Source of the DNA: Clostridia bacterium
GTDB taxonomy: Bacteria > Bacillota > Clostridia > Peptostreptococcales > Acidaminobacteraceae
Direction: 5' to 3'
Length of the DNA: 64,000 nucleotides
Assembly: GCA_014859095.1 (NCBI GenBank)
Contig: JACUUV010000005.1
Coordinates: forward strand, 44,065-108,064
Shown: positions 46,086-55,358 of the stretch, piece after piece
Numbering within the stretch: the stretch's first letter is position 1
How the letters are laid out: every line of letters starts with the position of its first letter
The notes under the pieces: model-generated
Seen by the model: only the letters and a program-made list of their open reading frames with translations
What the model was told of the DNA's origin: nothing
Database searches by the model: none
Made by a program: the position numbers and the translations under genes

Positions 46086-46820
46086 TTAATAGTCGTATGA
46101 AACGCTTACATTTGCTGTGATTGTAATTTCTCCTGATTCGATTGGTGTTGCCATGTCAGCCGCCATCGTCTTCTCTGCGCCGTATCCATAAATAATAGGT
46201 GTGCTGCTGCTGGATTCAACCACTGCTTTTGGGAGTCCAGGTGTTTTCTCAAAAGTACCCATGATTGCAGTGGCTTTTGATTTGGCGCTTACCATTGCTA
46301 GTTTCAATGCTTCTTGATAGAATTCTGAATCGTCTTCAATCGAGAATTGAATACTGTTGACTGTATTTGCTCCGGCAACAGTAGCCAAATCGATGATTTT
46401 TCCAACTGAATCCACATCTTTGATTTTGACTCTGACAATATTGTTGGCTACGTAGTAAGGATCCTTTTTCGAGCCATCCGGTTGATAATCGTATGTCTGG
46501 TATAGACTGTAACCGGTGGTCTGTATATCTTTTTCATCAATTCCTGCTTTTTTGATGGCTTCAACAACCGCACTCATTAATTTTGCATTGTTTTGCTGAG
46601 CAACTGTGGCATCCTCATTTTTCGTTTGGACACCAAGTTCGATGTGAGCCACATCTGGAGTGACAACAATTTTTCCTTCTCCGCTAACAGTGACCATTCT
46701 ATCGCCAGCATTGGCTTCAGCTGCTTCGGAAACCGTAGCAGGATTGTAAAATGTTGCCGCTGTAAGAATTGCGATTGTCATCGCCATAATTCCCAGTCCT
46801 TTTAATAGTTTGATTTTCAT
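46086..46820 (-). CDS. SIMPL-domain (DUF541) secreted protein
   Basis: Signal peptide; MVTVSGEGKIVVTPDVAHIELGVQTKNEDATVAQQNNAKLMSAVVEAIKKAGI. Confidence 0.92.
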   Translation of the reverse strand: MKIKLLKGLGIMAMTIAILTAATFYNPATVSEAAEANAGDRMVTVSGEGKIVVTPDVAHIELGVQTKNEDATVAQQNNAKLMSAVVEAIKKAGIDEKDIQTTGYSLYQTYDYQPDGSKKDPYYVANNIVRVKIKDVDSVGKIIDLATVAGANTVNSIQFSIEDDSEFYQEALKLAMVSAKSKATAIMGTFEKTPGLPKAVVESSSSTPIIYGYGAEKTMAADMATPIESGEITITANVSVSYDY

Positions 46821-48106
46821 GATTTCCTCCGTTTCTTCGTATAGACGATTTTAGCGAGAATCGCTAATAATCCCAATATCGCAAGTATCGGTGATTTAGA
46901 GACCAACCAGATGAATACTTGCTCGACTGTCAATTTGATTGAATTGATTGTATGGATAAAACCCTCTTTGGCTTTTCCAAATAATGTGTCATCGATTGGT
47001 TCGATCATTGGCTTCAGACTTTTGACCTCGTTGAGTTCCACAGTGATGGTTGTCATGTCCGCAAGCGCTTCCCAATCCTTTAGTTGACGTTCATATGAGT
47101 TGATTTGGCCACGAATTCTTGTAAGTTCATTTTCAATGGCGAGGATATCTTTGATTTCTACTGCATCTGTCATGATTTCTCTGAGTCTTTCTTCAGTGAC
47201 TTTCAAATTCTCGACTTCTGATGCGGTATCCCTGTAGTTTTTTGTCACATCATAAGCATTGGCTGAATCATATGTGACATTGCCTAGTGATTTGATCTGG
47301 TTGATCATGGACTCATATCCGGTTGCTGGAACTCTAAGTGTCATATAACCATATTTCAGGTTTTCGCGCTCGGTGTAGTTTGTCTTATAGGAAGTGGATT
47401 CGTTTTCCACATAACCACCAGCCGCTTTGACCCAAATGGTAAGTTGCAGATAAACTTCATCATATTTTTCCACGTCCATTCGAAGATTGGCAGTTTGGAT
47501 AATCAAACGATCTTCTCTGTAGTCTCCATTGGTTGGTGTGCTTTGTGGGGTTTCAGCAAAACCGGTCACACCATATGACGAATCGAGTTGCTGATTGCTC
47601 ATTTCAAATTCAGCTGTAGATGCTGGAGCCTCAGCAAGGGCGACTGATTCATTGAATGATAATTTTCCCATGTCTCCATCAGATCCACGACCGTATTCCT
47701 CGCTTGATTCGGTATTAATCATAGCCGACTCATATTTAGGCTGAAACAGTATGTTCTTGCCTATGACAACAACCATGAGCAGTACTGCGGCTGTGGCCAC
47801 ATATCCGTAATATCTTTTCTTGATATGGATGTTTCTTATTTTTTTCAATAGAGTGTTCCCAGTTTTGACTGGTTCACTGTCGTGTTTCACATTCATTAAT
47901 TTCTCGTGCAATTCTTCTTCAAAACCAATTGGTAATGCCTTCAACTCCATCTCTCCCAGCATTTGAACAACATATTTGAGCTCTTCAAATTCAACTGTAC
48001 AGGCTTCACAGGAGTCTATATGTTGATCCAATTTGGAACGCTCATGTTCGTTGATGTCGCCATCAATTGCTGCGTTCATTAATATTCTTGCTTGTTCACA
48101 GTTCAT
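46817..48106 (-). CDS. Putative anti-sigma factor: zf-HC2-like N-terminus, TM, DUF4349 extracellular domain, C-terminal TM
   Basis: MNCEQARILMNAAIDGDINEHERSKLDQHIDSCEACTVEFEEL; DRLIIQTANLRMDVEKYDEVYLQLTIWVKAAGGYVENES (DUF4349). Confidence 0.85.
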   Translation of the reverse strand: MNCEQARILMNAAIDGDINEHERSKLDQHIDSCEACTVEFEELKYVVQMLGEMELKALPIGFEEELHEKLMNVKHDSEPVKTGNTLLKKIRNIHIKKRYYGYVATAAVLLMVVVIGKNILFQPKYESAMINTESSEEYGRGSDGDMGKLSFNESVALAEAPASTAEFEMSNQQLDSSYGVTGFAETPQSTPTNGDYREDRLIIQTANLRMDVEKYDEVYLQLTIWVKAAGGYVENESTSYKTNYTERENLKYGYMTLRVPATGYESMINQIKSLGNVTYDSANAYDVTKNYRDTASEVENLKVTEERLREIMTDAVEIKDILAIENELTRIRGQINSYERQLKDWEALADMTTITVELNEVKSLKPMIEPIDDTLFGKAKEGFIHTINSIKLTVEQVFIWLVSKSPILAILGLLAILAKIVYTKKRRKS

Positions 48107-48119
48107 AAACGTCCTCCTT

Positions 48120-48728
48120 TCATTGCTCGGCCAGCTGAATTTTTAATATTGACTTGAGTGAGGTTCTACTTCGATTTAATCTGGATCTCACCGTACCGAT
48201 AGGTATTTGTAGGATCTCACCGATTTCTTCATAGGAGTATCCCATTAGATCTTTGAGTATGACCACCGATTTACTATCATCAGAGAGATTGTTAAGCGCA
48301 TCGTTCAAGGTGGCTTTTAACTCTATTTGTTCATAGATCAAGATTGGATTTGCCTTATCGTCACTTATAATATCTTGTAAAGAGGCATTGTCCGCTATAG
48401 CTTCATCGAGTGATAGAACCTGTTCTTTTCTTTTTCTCAGTTCATCTTTACATGTGTTGATGACTATCCTGTAGAGCCAAGTCGAAAACCCGGACTCCAT
48501 TTTGAATTGTCCTATTGCCTTATATGCTTTGATCAATGCTTCTTGCGACATATCTTTTGCATCTTCTTCATTCCCCATCATTCGATATGCTATGTTATAA
48601 ACATACCGATTGTACTTAACAATGAGTTTTTCGAAGCTGGAAACATCGCCTTGAATACTTTTTTCTATGAGCGTAGATTCCATTTTTTCACTCCTCTCAT
48701 GAAAGGCTATAGTTATTAGACGGCACAC
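48120..48728 (-). CDS. ECF-family RNA polymerase sigma factor (likely start MESTLIEKS at 48683)
   Basis: VYNIAYRMMGNEEDAKDMSQEALIKAYKAIGQF; YSYEEIGEILQIPIGTVRSRLNRSRTSLK. Confidence 0.93.
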   Translation of the reverse strand: MCRLITIAFHERSEKMESTLIEKSIQGDVSSFEKLIVKYNRYVYNIAYRMMGNEEDAKDMSQEALIKAYKAIGQFKMESGFSTWLYRIVINTCKDELRKRKEQVLSLDEAIADNASLQDIISDDKANPILIYEQIELKATLNDALNNLSDDSKSVVILKDLMGYSYEEIGEILQIPIGTVRSRLNRSRTSLKSILKIQLAEQ

Positions 48729-50113: not shown

Positions 50114-51370
50114 TCAATTCATTTCAATATATTTCTGGTATTTTTGAAAATCCTGTTCTCTGCATTCAATATTCAAGACCGTACCGTCATTCTCATATTT
50201 GATCTCTTTGACACAAGCATTGTCATTCAAATATGAAACTAGCGCTCCTTCAGTAAAAGGAATCCGCATTGTACACTCAACATAGTCGGTAAAAACAAGA
50301 TCGGAAATCTTTTTTTCAAGTATATCAATTCCAATTCTCTCTTTAGCGGAGATGTATACACCTCGTTCATCAACATTTGGCAGCTCATCAAGTACCAGTT
50401 CCGACTTGTTGAAAACATTGATCACCGGAATCTGATCTGCTCCAATTTCTTTAAGTGTCTCAAGAGTAACTTTCATTTGTTCTTCGTAATTTGGATTGGA
50501 ATAATCCACCACATGAAGTAGAAGGTCTGCATGAATCACTTCCTCAAGTGTCGATCTGAAAGCCTTGATGAGTCCATGTGGCAGATTACTTACAAATCCA
50601 ACTGTATCGGATAAAAGAAATCTGCGTTTGTTTTTCATTACAATTTGTCTAACTGATGTTTCCAGTGTGGCAAACAACATATTTTTCTCAAGGACAAATT
50701 TTTCAGAGCTTCCATTGTTTTCTGATACGAAAGCGTTGAGAAGTGTTGATTTTCCAGAATTCGTGTATCCTACAAGTGCAATTGAAGGCAATTCTGAACT
50801 TACCCTTCTTTTTCTTTGCGTGGTTCTTTCATTTTGGATACTCTGCAAAGCCCTCTCCATCTCAACAATCTTTTGCTCGGCTCTCCTTCTATCGAGTTCC
50901 AGTTTCTTTTCACCGACACCTTTGTTTTTCGTGCCAACGCCTCCCGATTGCCTACCCAGCGCTGTATATGAGCCAATCAGTCTAGGCAACAAGTATTGAA
51001 CTTGCGCCATTTCAACTTGAAGTTTGGCCTCTCTAGTCCTGGCACGTTTTCCAAAAATCTCAAGGATGAGTGCCGTTCGATCAAAAACAGGCATATTGAG
51101 TGCGTTTTCAAGGTTTCTCAGTTGTGATGGAGACAATTCATCATTGAATATGACTTTTTCTGCATTCACAGCTTCAGCGTCCAGTTTGATCTCCATTATT
51201 TTTCCACTGCCAACATATGTGACAGAATGTTTGTTTCTCATATTTTGTTCAACCTGACCCACAACTGTATAGTTGCAAGCTTTAGCTAGATTTTTTAATT
51301 CTTCCATCGAATTTTTAAATTCGTGATTGTTACCGGCGTTTACGCCTACTATAAGTACTCTTTCGTTCAT
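50114..51370 (-). CDS. hflX: GTPase HflX (ribosome-splitting factor family)
   Basis: FNDELSPSQLRNLENAL, GRQSGGVGTKNKGVGEKKLELDRRRAEQKI, ALVGYTNSGKSTLLNAF, LSDTVGFVSNLPHGLIKAFRSTLEE. Confidence 0.96.
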   Translation of the reverse strand: MNERVLIVGVNAGNNHEFKNSMEELKNLAKACNYTVVGQVEQNMRNKHSVTYVGSGKIMEIKLDAEAVNAEKVIFNDELSPSQLRNLENALNMPVFDRTALILEIFGKRARTREAKLQVEMAQVQYLLPRLIGSYTALGRQSGGVGTKNKGVGEKKLELDRRRAEQKIVEMERALQSIQNERTTQRKRRVSSELPSIALVGYTNSGKSTLLNAFVSENNGSSEKFVLEKNMLFATLETSVRQIVMKNKRRFLLSDTVGFVSNLPHGLIKAFRSTLEEVIHADLLLHVVDYSNPNYEEQMKVTLETLKEIGADQIPVINVFNKSELVLDELPNVDERGVYISAKERIGIDILEKKISDLVFTDYVECTMRIPFTEGALVSYLNDNACVKEIKYENDGTVLNIECREQDFQKYQKYIEMN

Positions 51371-51451
51371 ATGGACCTCCCCTTTCTTTGATTGCGACAG
51401 CTCTTATCAAATACGCAAATGTTGCGGCATCTGGGAAAGGTTGTCGAACGG

Positions 51452-51496
51452 TTAGTGAATAATAATTACTCTACATAATTTGCATAACTTCAACAC
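51452..51496 (-). CDS. Candidate leader peptide uORF2 upstream of hflX (GTG start: MLKLCKLCRVIIIH)
   Basis: AAAAGGAGG SD 7 nt upstream of GTG 51496; stop TAA 51454-51452; ATG at 51502 also in frame but too close to SD. Confidence 0.5.
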   Translation of the reverse strand: MLKLCKLCRVIIIH

Positions 51497-51524
51497 GTTC
51501 ATACCTCCTTTTATTTTTTTGTTC

Positions 51525-51560
51525 AAAAAAAACAGCCTACAAGTCAACGAGGCTGTTTTT
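51525..51560 (-). terminator. Strong intrinsic terminator inside the hflX leader
   Basis: Minus strand AAAAACAGCCT-cgttgacttgt-AGGCTGTTTTTTTT. Confidence 0.8.
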
Positions 51561-51570
51561 CATATGCAAT

Positions 51571-51597
51571 AAAAATAGACGCGAAAGCGCCTATTTT
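51571..51597 (-). terminator. Second hairpin with T-tract in hflX leader
   Basis: Minus strand AAAATAGGCGC-TTTC-GCGTCTATTTTTATT. Confidence 0.6.
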
Positions 51598-51677
51598 ATC
51601 AATTATTTAATTACGGCTGTTCACATGATTGATGGGCACAAGAAAAAAACTGTTTCAGCCCCGATATTCAGTTGTAA

Positions 51678-51701
51678 TCAACTCAATCTCAATTTCATCA
51701 T
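51678..51701 (-). CDS. Candidate leader peptide uORF1 upstream of hflX (MMKLRLS)
   Basis: GAGGTG SD followed by ATGATGAAATTGAGATTGAGTTGA. Confidence 0.55.
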   Translation of the reverse strand: MMKLRLS

Positions 51702-51732
51702 GTTGGCACCTCGTTTACATTATTATACATAT

Positions 51733-51761
51733 ATACTACCACAAACCGCTCATTGCTTCAA
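51733..51761 (-). promoter_or_regulatory. Putative promoter of the hflX leader transcript
   Basis: Minus strand TTGAAG - 17 nt - TAGTAT (TATAAT also present at 51727-51722). Confidence 0.5.
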
Positions 51762-51764
51762 TAA

Positions 51765-52433
51765 TTATAAGAAAAATTCAACTTTGATGCACTTACCAAT
51801 CACTTTCACATCAATAGGATTGAAGACTTGTGGAGTATGATCATTAATACCTGTCAGCAGCTGCAACTTTCTATTTGAGTCCATTCTGACCATCCTGATT
51901 TGTCTGATACCACCGACTTCCAAATAATAGATGGAATCATTTTCCACAGTATTCATCATATGCACACTAATCACATCACTTTTTCTAATCCGAAGTCCTG
52001 GCAAATCAGATTGTTCTACTTTTACAAACATGATTTTCTCGAAATGAATACCATCTATTTTTTTGTGCACGATTGAAAGTTCCTTGTAATCCAGCACCTT
52101 ACCACTTGACGCTCCAGTTACAGGATATTTTTGAATAACCCCCGCGAGTACACTCTCCCACTGCGCATTTGGTGTTATCGGTTTGATAGCTTCTCTCACA
52201 GGTGCCGCCTTAACTTTGGTCTTTTCCGGCACAGGTTGATCGTCTGTGATGAACTGTATCTCCTCACCCATCACGCTAAGTATTTTCTCAGCCATATGTT
52301 CATTGATGACTTTTTTTCCTGATTCCACTTGGAGCAAGTAACTCAGCTGAATGCCAGCTTTCGCGGCCAGTTCCTTCTCGGTCATTTTTGCTTTGATACG
52401 AGCATCTTTTATTTTTTGTGCCAATCTATTCAT
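51765..52433 (-). CDS. XRE-type HTH regulator with C-terminal domain resembling a degenerate S24/LexA peptidase
   Basis: LAQKIKDARIKAKMTEKELAAKAGIQLSYLLQVESGKKVINEHMAEKIL; C-terminal GLRIRKSDVISVHMM...IYYLEVGGIRQIRMVRMD. Confidence 0.75.
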   Translation of the reverse strand: MNRLAQKIKDARIKAKMTEKELAAKAGIQLSYLLQVESGKKVINEHMAEKILSVMGEEIQFITDDQPVPEKTKVKAAPVREAIKPITPNAQWESVLAGVIQKYPVTGASSGKVLDYKELSIVHKKIDGIHFEKIMFVKVEQSDLPGLRIRKSDVISVHMMNTVENDSIYYLEVGGIRQIRMVRMDSNRKLQLLTGINDHTPQVFNPIDVKVIGKCIKVEFFL

Positions 52434-52481
52434 GATTCACCTCTATTTGTATTTAGTACTATTATATCAGAAATATGTATA

Positions 52482-52510
52482 TTGACTTATACCCCCAAAG
52501 GGTATATAAT
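52482..52510 (+). promoter_or_regulatory. copA promoter
   Basis: TTGACT (52482-52487) - 17 nt - TATAAT (52505-52510). Confidence 0.8.
52489..52505 (+). promoter_or_regulatory. CsoR-type operator 1 (ATACCCCCAAAGGGTAT)
   Basis: Palindrome with CCC/GGG arms lying in the spacer of the copA promoter. Confidence 0.75.
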
Positions 52511-52520
52511 TATATTAAAG

Positions 52521-52537
52521 ATACCCCATGTGGGTAT
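52521..52537 (+). promoter_or_regulatory. CsoR-type operator 2 (ATACCCCATGTGGGTAT)
   Basis: Second copy of the palindrome just downstream of the expected start site and before copA SD. Confidence 0.75.
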
Positions 52538-52551
52538 AGAAAGGAACTCAA

Positions 52552-55011
52552 ATGAAAACAGAAGTATTTCAAGTTGATGGAATGACTTGCGCTTCTTGCT
52601 CAAGTGCAGTAGAAAGAGCAACGAGAAAAATGGAAGGTGTCGATACATCAAATGTAAATCTATCCACTGAAAAATTGACCCTGACATATGATGAAGCGCT
52701 TATAGACGTAGCTAAAATTATGGAAACAGTAAAGAAAGCCGGCTACGAGGCTAAACCTATAAACAAAGACAAAAAAGTAAAATTACCGATTGAAGGCATG
52801 ACATGTGCCGCGTGTTCCCAAGCAATCGAAAGAAAACTTGGAAAAATGGACGGCATTGACTTTGTCTCGGTGAATTTGGCTACTGAAGCTGCTCAAATTG
52901 AATACAATCCGGATTTAGTACGTCTTTCTGAAATCAAACAAGCCATCTCTAAATTAGGTTATGTAGCAAAAGAAGCCGAAGTAAAACGTAATGTTGATGA
53001 AGACAAAATTCGAAAAGACAAGGAAATCAAAGAGATGAAGTTCAAATTGACTTTGTCTGTGATCTTTGCAATCCCACTATTTTATATTGCGATGGGACCT
53101 ATGATTCCGTTTGTAACTCTTCCACTACCAGGATTTCTTTCACCGGATCACAATCCACTTAATTTTGCTTTCGCTCAAATATTGCTGACACTACCAATCA
53201 TATGGGCTGGTCGAAATTTTTATACTGTTGGTTTCAGACAACTTTTTCACAGAAGTCCAAACATGGATTCTCTGATTGCCATTGGTACCTCTGCCGCACT
53301 TTTATATAGCTTTTTCTCAGTAGGCCAAATCATCACGGGTGACCACATGGCTGTTCATCATATGTATTTCGAAACAGCTGGAGTCATAATCGCACTTATT
53401 CTACTTGGTAAGACACTGGAAACCATATCAAAAGGGAAAACATCCGAGGCTATAAAAAAACTCATAGGACTCACTCCAAAGACCGCTATTGTCATTAATG
53501 GAGATGAAGAGATTGAAATGCCTGTCGAAGAAATCGAACTCGGTGACATATTGATTGTCAAGCCAGGAGGAAAAATTGCAGTTGACGGTTCAGTGATTGA
53601 AGGCTATTCCAGTATCGATGAATCCATGTTGACCGGCGAAAGTATTCCCGTAGAAAAAAATGTTGGAGACAAAGTTTATAGTGCAAGTTTAAACAAAACT
53701 GGTTCATTTAAATATAGGGCCGAAAAAGTCGGTGATGAAACAGCTCTTGCACACATCATAAAGTTGGTTGAAGAAGCACAAGGCAGTAAAGCTCCAATAG
53801 CTAGAATGGCTGATATTATATCTGGATATTTCGTACCGATCGTTTTCTTGATCGCTATTATTTCCAGCGCAATATGGTTTATATCAGGACAAGATATTGT
53901 TTTCACACTTAAAGTATTCATTTCAGTACTCGTTATAGCATGTCCATGTGCCCTCGGACTCGCAACTCCGACAGCAATCATGGTTGGAACTGGAAAGGGC
54001 GCAGAGCTCGGCGTACTCGTAAAAAGTGGTGGTGCTCTTGAAACGGCACATAAAATAGATACCATCGTTTTTGACAAAACAGGAACTCTTACAAAAGGTA
54101 AGCCTGAAGTAACAGATATTTATGCAGTCAATGGATTCAGCGATGCGGATATTATAACATATGCCGCCTCCGCTGAATACGGCAGTGAGCACCCTCTTGG
54201 AGAATCCATCGTCAAAAAGGGTCAAGAAATGAATATCCAGCGCTTCAAAACGGATGAATTCTTTGCAATTCCAGGTAGAGGCATCAAAGCAATGATCAAT
54301 CAAAGCGAAGTGCTTCTCGGCAACATTAAATTACTGCAGGATAATGGTATAGATCCTCTGGACCATCTCACTCAATTCGATCTTTATGCGGATGAAGGAA
54401 AAACGCCTATGCTACTGGCAATTGGCGGAAAAGTTGCAGGTATAATTGCTGCTGCCGATGTACTGAAAGACAATAGCATTGATGCGATAAAGAGATTGCA
54501 CAAGCTCAACATCAAAACCATAATGATTACTGGTGATCATAAAAAAACCGCCGGTGCAATTGCAAAATATGTTGGAATTGACGAAGTTTTAGCCGAAGTT
54601 TTACCTGGTGACAAAGCGGCTGAAGTCAAAAAGTTACAAGAAAGTGGTAGAAATGTCGCCATGGTCGGTGATGGAATCAATGACGCGCCTGCGCTGGCTC
54701 AAGCTGATATAGGAATAGCCATTGGATCTGGCACTGATGTGGCAATGGAATCAGCCGATATCGTTCTGATGAGAAGCGACCTTCTCGATGTTGTCACAGC
54801 CATTCAACTCAGCAGAAAAACGATCCGAAATATCAAACAAAACTTGTTTTGGGCGTTCATCTACAATATAATTGGCATACCTGTTGCGGCTGGAGTCTTG
54901 TATGCTTTTGGAGGACCACTTCTCAGTCCGATATTTGCTGCTGCCGCAATGTCCATGAGCTCAGTCTCGGTATTAACGAACGCTCTCAGATTGAAAACCT
55001 TTAAAATTTAG
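52552..55011 (+). CDS. copA: Copper-translocating P1B-type ATPase with two N-terminal HMA domains
   Basis: GMTCASCSS and [12 protein letters not shown] motifs, [53 protein letters not shown]. Confidence 0.96.
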
Positions 55012-55019
55012 GAGGAACC

Positions 55020-55358
55020 ATGAGTCAAGCTACTATCAAACCAAACACGTGTGACATCGAAGATCTATCTTGTGAGTGTGATCGCCAGACCATGAGGACA
55101 GAAAACGAGAAAAAGTTGCTTGCTAACCGCTGCAACAGAATTGAAGGCCAGATTAGAGGCATAAAAGGGATGATTGAACGGGACGTCTATTGTGATGATA
55201 TTTTAAATCAAATCGCCGCGGCTCAATCAGCACTGAACTCCATGGGAAGAATCATTCTCGAACAACATATGAATACATGCCTCATCGATAGAATCAAAGA
55301 TGGAGATTATGACGTCATAGACGAAATCCTCACAACAATTGGTAAGTTGATGAAATAA
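55020..55358 (+). CDS. csoR: CsoR/RcnR family metal-sensing repressor
   Basis: NRCNRIEGQIRGIKGMIERDVYCDDILNQIAAAQSALNSMGRIILEQHMNTCL; Cys-His-Cys copper ligands. Confidence 0.93.
   Translation: MSQATIKPNTCDIEDLSCECDRQTMRTENEKKLLANRCNRIEGQIRGIKGMIERDVYCDDILNQIAAAQSALNSMGRIILEQHMNTCLIDRIKDGDYDVIDEILTTIGKLMK

Follow-up and report, generated by a model that had tools for sequence, protein, structure and literature searches.

A putative tandem-uORF leader upstream of an HflXr-type gene in a Fusibacter relative: predicted attenuation of transcription and translation in series

Introduction

The window analyzed here, a 64,000-nucleotide stretch of contig JACUUV010000005.1 from a Clostridia bacterium, carries on its minus strand an hflX gene with a long, hairpin-rich leader. 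The question raised by this locus is whether the leader couples expression of hflX to ribosomes stalled by antibiotics and, if so, at which step of gene expression. Control of this kind has been reported for the Listeria hflXr gene lmo0762, whose leader, rli80, contains one 14-codon RLR upstream open reading frame (uORF) and acts by transcription attenuation (PMC6310831). A single-uORF motif, uORFC-6-1, is also known before hflX, mainly in Bacillales (PMC8632094).

An initial annotation of the window had proposed a ribosome-mediated attenuator before hflX. Comparison with related leaders supported the core of that proposal, but its pairing scheme had to be revised, and a second uORF (uORF2) and a helix able to hide the Shine–Dalgarno (SD) sequence of hflX, both omitted from it, were added. 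Based on sequence comparison and folding models, the locus is probably an antibiotic-responsive hflXr leader in which transcription attenuation, governed by uORF1, is followed in series by translation attenuation, governed by uORF2.

Results and Discussion

The hflX gene and its surroundings

The hflX gene (50114..51370, minus strand) encodes a predicted ribosome-splitting GTPase of 418 aa. Its product matched TIGR03156 with 423.7 bits and PDB chain 8a57_D with an E value of 8.7e-120. We take 8a57 to be the Listeria HflXr complex, the structure title naming only GTPase HflX. A second hflX gene in the genome encodes a protein with 46% identity to that of the window. In a 55-row tree, the window's HflX and the Listeria 8a57 chain were placed in one clade (support 100/99), whereas the paralogue (L002) was placed in the other. 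The HD loop, the part of HflX that reaches the peptidyl-transferase centre, has 19 residues in the window's HflX and in 8a57_D and 17 in both E. coli HflX and the paralogue; lengthening of this loop is a reported hallmark of HflXr (PMC12493154). On the basis of the tree and the HD loop, the window's hflX is of the HflXr (antibiotic-resistance) type, and the genome carries a separate canonical hflX. The source genome is a Fusibacter relative with F. tunisiensis DSM 24436, F. bizertensis and MAG SMBSF52 bin_38 as neighbors, and the HflX of the last is 96% identical to that of the window.

The gene just upstream of hflX (51765-52433, minus strand) encodes an HTH plus Peptidase_S24-like protein. 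In three relatives (G021, G020, and G024), hflXr is preceded by a gene with a similar end (KVEFFL-like), and the two genes may therefore be functionally linked. Elsewhere in the window, an ECF-type sigma factor gene followed by one for a zinc-finger (zf-HC2) plus DUF4349 membrane protein (46817-48728, minus strand) is likely a sigma/anti-sigma pair. A P-type ATPase that carries two CxxC repeats for heavy-metal binding, and is of the copper type by sequence, is followed by a CsoR-family repressor (52552-55358, plus strand); the two are an ordinary metal-resistance pair.

Layout of the leader

The minus-strand leader spans 394 bases, separating the HTH/S24-like regulator gene, which ends at 51765, from the ATG of hflX (51370). 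A promoter TTGAAG-N17-TAGTAT (51733..51761) was read from the sequence, with TTGAAG at 51761-51756 and TAGTAT at 51738-51733. Its score in a generic promoter/terminator scan was sub-threshold; from the -35 element to the expected start, 35/36 bases are the same in the nearest relative (G022), and TTGAAx-N17-TATAxT-like pairs, judged by eye, occupy the equivalent position in F. bizertensis and two MAGs. The promoter is followed by the SD GAGGTG with uORF1, two intrinsic terminators (T1 and T2), a second SD with uORF2, an anti-SD segment and the SD of hflX. The letters and coordinates given in the initial annotation for the promoter, the first SD, uORF1, T1, T2, the AACAGCC repeat (51621-51615 and 51557-51551) and GGCTG (51660-51656) were all correct. 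Only sub-threshold Rfam matches were obtained for 50500-53000, none above the gathering score of a family, and no second copy of the leader was found elsewhere in the genome.

Seven orthologues of the window's hflX within the family, the window (G000) included, were compared. The order promoter-uORF1-terminator-uORF2-hflX was observed in six of them (G000, G022, G024, G018, G020, and G019), and the seventh, G021, has the second uORF only (MLMIYFVKLRD) and lacks the first step. The two peptides are MKLRDYSMIKVNKRNYR and MNKFMRLKNSTLK in G024, MMKLRGNYDN and MLIKKTVNYIKLRA in G018, MFKLRVCVTTEY and MFTVKFTQNNRLRA in G020, and MRLRQNSQVKFNSIKA and MLSFIKLRRSTSL in G019. Among the 22 other, canonical-type hflX genes of the family, none has an SD-preceded +X+ uORF.

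uORF1, the terminators and the antiterminator

uORF1 (51701-51678; 51678..51712 with its SD at 51712-51707) is ATGATGAAATTGAGATTGAGTTGA, that is ATG ATG AAA TTG AGA TTG AGT TGA, and encodes the peptide MMKLRLS of 7 codons, with the arrest motif K-L-R at codons 3-5. The presence of a +X+ uORF before hflX, proposed from the window alone, was borne out by the relatives: the reading frame is identical at 24/24 positions in G022, and all six tandem leaders, window included, begin uORF1 with M(x)[K/R]LR, while its length and remaining sequence have diverged. [K/R]LR lies inside the first five residues in 6/6 uORF1 peptides, against about 0.2% expected per random uORF. Macrolide arrest is known for the sequence MRLR (PMC8298421).

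T1 (AAAATAGGCGC-TTTC-GCGTCTATTTTT; 51571..51597, minus strand; -9.6 kcal/mol) and T2 (AAAAACAGCCT...AGGCTGTTTTTTTT; 51525..51560, minus strand; -11.2 kcal/mol, 0/100 shuffles) were called by a purpose-made terminator scan. The generic scan had missed both because of its loop and tail limits. The stretch from T1 to T2 folds with z = -5.5, and in each of the six tandem leaders the best hairpin-plus-U-tract lying between uORF1 and uORF2 beat 100/100 dinucleotide shuffles. The two T-tailed hairpins noted in the initial annotation can thus be regarded as intrinsic terminators. Both are present in G022, as is uORF1: T1 is 27/28 identical there, and T2 is 31/34 identical, its hairpin surviving the base changes. 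T1 is missing from relatives more distant than G022; a terminator at the position of T2 is found in 6/6 tandem leaders.

In folds without a ribosome, the 5′ region of the window closes up by internal pairing, and one of its helices covers the start codon of uORF1 (z about -1.9 in the window and in G022). The best antiterminator pairs CGGGGCUG (51663-51656, minus strand) with CAGCCUCG (51555-51548), which comprises the 5′ arm of T2 plus loop. In masked folds, this competing structure can form before the 3′ arm of T2 is synthesized, and its helix is extended by pairing of a U-rich strand with GCAUAUGAAAAA. The 8-bp pairing is the same in G022, and its duplex energy differs from shuffles with p = 0.03 and 0.02 in this pair of leaders; in the more distant leaders, no duplex was significant singly. 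Mutually exclusive pairing had been anticipated before the comparison, and a structure competing with T2 is predicted, but the best one is not formed by the AACAGCC repeat or the AACTG/CAGTT pair named at the time. As a main switch, the AACAGCC repeat swap was rejected, with the pairing of GGCTG to the first copy reaching at most 0.55 in masked folds of the window and at most 0.20 in those of G022. The exclusive pair near the uORF1 stop (AACTG:CAGTT, then T7) did not hold up either: as a third hairpin terminator it fell short of detection by the terminator scan, and G022 has a shorter stem there and an interrupted T run. Separately, the seven-T run after uORF1 (51649-51643, minus strand) may instead serve as a NusG-type TTNTTT pause site, reading TTATTT in G022; such motifs are missing from 2/6 leaders.

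When a ribosome stalled on uORF1 was represented by masked folding, the upstream pairing of the terminator arm rose from 0.04 to 0.80 in G022, from 0.12 to 0.69 in G018, from 0.22 to 0.74 in G020 and from 0.16 to 0.64 in G019 (p 0-0.05, 4/6 leaders). The change on the T2 arm of the window, from 0.53 to 0.63, was not significant (p = 0.20), and no change was seen in G024. Therefore, the evidence for the first step is strong for the class and weak for the window's own sequence. T1 was opened in none of the masked folds, including that with the proposed antiterminator, so T1 would have to be, and may be, leaky. The p-values are not independent, since the leaders share ancestry, and the folds model equilibrium. 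As a property of the leader family, transcription attenuation at uORF1 is very likely.

uORF2 and hiding of the hflX SD

uORF2 begins just past the stretch covered by the initial annotation, which missed both it and the anti-SD. The strong SD AAGGAGGT (51510-51503) precedes uORF2, which runs from a GTG at 51496 to a stop at 51452 (51452..51510 with the SD, minus strand) as GTG TTG AAG TTA TGC AAA TTA TGT AGA GTA ATT ATT ATT CAC TAA and encodes MLKLCKLCRVIIIH. The corresponding peptide in G022 is MFKLCRLRRVMIIH, with the frame retained through substitutions only and no indel. From uORF2 to the hflX start, 76/79 bases are the same in G022, as opposed to only 14/22 in the linker from T2 to the uORF2 SD. 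uORF2 with a good SD is retained in 7/7 orthologues. A +X+ motif is found at the same place in six of the seven (G022, G024, G018, G019, G020, and G021), while the window has KLCKLCR, without +X+, where its 96%-identical relative G022 has RLR. In the window's species, the uORF2 arrest motif has therefore decayed.

Behind uORF2, the anti-SD ACCUUUCC (51434..51441, minus strand) can form an 8-bp helix with the hflX SD GGGGAGGU (51375..51382, minus strand, read from the sequence) in the fold of 51452-51375 and thereby hide it. In the predictions, the hflX SD became less open when a ribosome sat at the stop codon of uORF2 but not when the ribosome was stalled before it; for the window, openness was 0.10 and 0.74, respectively (0/60 shuffles). 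Over 17 leaders, the stall-minus-stop difference averaged 0.21, against -0.01 for shuffled spacers, and was 0.64 in the window; the effect reached p ≤ 0.05 in 7/17 leaders, window included, and was reversed in 0/17. The idea of masking by a ribosome at the stop codon was derived from folds of the same leaders, so these values lend support but do not test it independently. On its own, the local SD-hiding fold is of unremarkable stability (z = -0.9), and without any ribosome the hflX SD of the window is predicted to be mostly open (0.71). Taken with the folding models, uORF2 and the helix able to hide the SD point to a further control step at hflX, at the level of translation. For the leader family, this step is favored, less firmly than the first; in the window's own species, which has lost the arrest motif, it is less likely than in the family.

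Proposed mechanism and alternative explanations

In the proposed mechanism, RNA polymerase would start at about 51726 and ribosomes would translate uORF1. If they finish uORF1 and leave, the 5′ region would fold on itself, T2 (and T1) would form, and transcription would end before hflX. A macrolide-type drug would stall the ribosome at Lys-Leu-Arg and block the 5′ fold, and CGGGGCUG (51656..51663), thus freed, would pair with the 5′ arm of T2 and allow the polymerase to read through. On the read-through RNA, ribosomes would translate uORF2. A ribosome at the uORF2 stop would cover the segment behind the stop, leaving ACCUUUCC to mask the hflX SD by pairing, and a ribosome held upstream in uORF2 would favor a fold with the hflX SD open. 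The effects of the two steps would multiply and so keep a ribosome-splitting enzyme under tight control. Stalling by a drug, read-through, masking of the SD in the cell, resistance and the identity of the drug are elements that we infer.

A simpler account is that uORF1 and the terminators alone regulate, as in Listeria rli80, that uORF2 is a relic or a loading site, and that hflX, once transcribed, is translated freely. The KLCKLCR of the window in place of the RLR of G022, the z value of the local SD-hiding fold and the mostly open hflX SD in the ribosome-free prediction all agree with it. Such an account is nevertheless unlikely in view of the retention of uORF2 and its SD in every orthologue, with +X+ in six, of the near-identity between uORF2 and hflX in G022, and of a stall-versus-stop effect above shuffles in seven of the 17 leaders, the window among them.

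The nature of the signal and the existence of sensing can also be questioned. HflX is also known to act when heat or other stresses stall ribosomes, and the leader might respond to translation stress not caused by macrolide-type drugs (another inhibitor class, heat or a shortage of tRNA), in which case the uORFs would sense ribosome speed in general; uORF1 is short enough for stalling by early-elongation inhibitors, and the uORF2 of the window has no classical motif. We consider this improbable, since the sole constant of uORF1 is [K/R]LR near the start codon, like the macrolide-arresting MRLR (PMC8298421). It is more improbable still that the terminators serve the upstream HTH/S24 gene and constitutively tune hflX down, with uORF1 and uORF2 as chance ORFs that sense nothing. 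T1 and T2 do lie 170-240 bases past that same-strand gene, and short ORFs are plentiful in AT-rich DNA, but uORF1 and its MKLR start are kept despite changing flanks, and +X+ uORFs are limited to HflXr-type genes, with 0/22 among the other hflX copies of the family.

Related leaders beyond the family

Among named HflXr-related loci, 34/79 have an SD-preceded +X+ uORF, against 7.3 expected. In Paenibacillus and other Bacillales, a single uORF M..(I)RLRF.ALCR is followed by terminators, and these leaders look like rli80 and the uORFC-6-1 motif. Tandem leaders were found in Clostridium tunisiense (MLIFFLRFRDLV, then MILKACIFSIRLRA), in Ruminiclostridium cellobioparum (MRIFFIRIRNLV, then MRIRITAFYIRIRI) and in G145 (MGYFFIRFRNLV, then MAYRFSFSHIRLRG), and the first peptide of these three is conserved across families. 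Further tandem leaders, in C. sulfidigenes and Peptostreptococcaceae, have first peptides of other types without a clear arrest motif. A first peptide FF[IL]R[FI]R[ND]LV is conserved across three clostridial families (L063, L082 (also L081), and L033) and sits far upstream of hflXr, at 430-640 bases; masked folds of the uORF1 step in L063, L033 and L082 gave no consistent signal. The RFR/RIR of this peptide recalls the RYR in the tlrB leader peptide MIIQFIRYR (PMC6851288).

A different arrangement was noted in Clostridioides difficile records (L088, L089, L092, L094; L045, 1319-1346), where a single RLR uORF (MIFYIRLRK or similar) ends about 140 bases before an HflXr-type hflX. A long hairpin follows the uORF, and its 3′ arm can alternatively pair with the hflX SD. 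This leader is probably a translation attenuator that lacks the window's upstream step.

Comparison with known attenuators

The window shares with rli80 the HflXr clade, a canonical second copy elsewhere in the genome, a short +X+ uORF before intrinsic termination and, in the proposed mechanism, an antiterminator and ribosome-dependent attenuation. The rli80 leader, however, has one 14-codon uORF and transcriptional control only, whereas the window has a 7-codon uORF1 and then a post-terminator uORF2 with an anti-SD. uORFC-6-1 likewise places a +X+ (RLR) uORF with structured RNA behind it before hflX, but this is one uORF, and the clostridial tandem layout is unlike that motif. Transcription and translation attenuation are joined, with R-X-R stalling as trigger, in B. 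subtilis tlrB (yxjB) (PMC6851288); there one uORF drives both steps, in contrast to two uORFs with terminators between them, one per step, in the window.

Other resistance genes are controlled by more than one leader element. msrD is under two drug-sensing leader peptides in series (PMC10314930), but the mefA gene separates them and both act on termination. Two leader peptides, ermBL and ermBL2, are needed ahead of ermB (PMC8274638), with translational control only and no terminator between them. The clostridial uORF leader of C. difficile cplR combines a terminator with SD hiding (PMC10201436); its uORF has three codons (MRI), the gene is of the ABC-F type, and the terminator and SD-hiding helix are one structure. 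Compared with an ermC-type translation attenuator, the second step of the window has the SD-hiding segment but is missing the arrest motif in uORF2. We found no description in the open-access literature of two uORFs with an intervening terminator before one resistance gene. The doubled layout most likely extends the known rli80/tlrB/erm-type switch in a form undescribed in that literature.

A bolder reading, which we put forward tentatively and hold to be doubtful, is a two-sensor gate widespread in Clostridia, in which the first arrest peptide licenses transcription and the second licenses translation, full expression needs both stalls, and the response to drugs can be tuned independently at each. 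If true, the leader would act as an AND or multiplying gate whose second peptide has been retuned or relaxed in the window's species, and the layout would have emerged, or been reassembled, with several first peptides that are unrelated to one another.

Resistance through ribosome splitting by HflXr is recognised but little studied, and its control was known mainly from one single-uORF Listeria leader. Conservation of the tandem layout would mean that bacteria stack two checks on a single costly enzyme, one on transcription and one on translation, and equip each with a drug-sensing peptide of its own. The layout would offer a clean test of whether both sensors see the same or different drugs, and it predicts inducible hflXr across many Clostridia.
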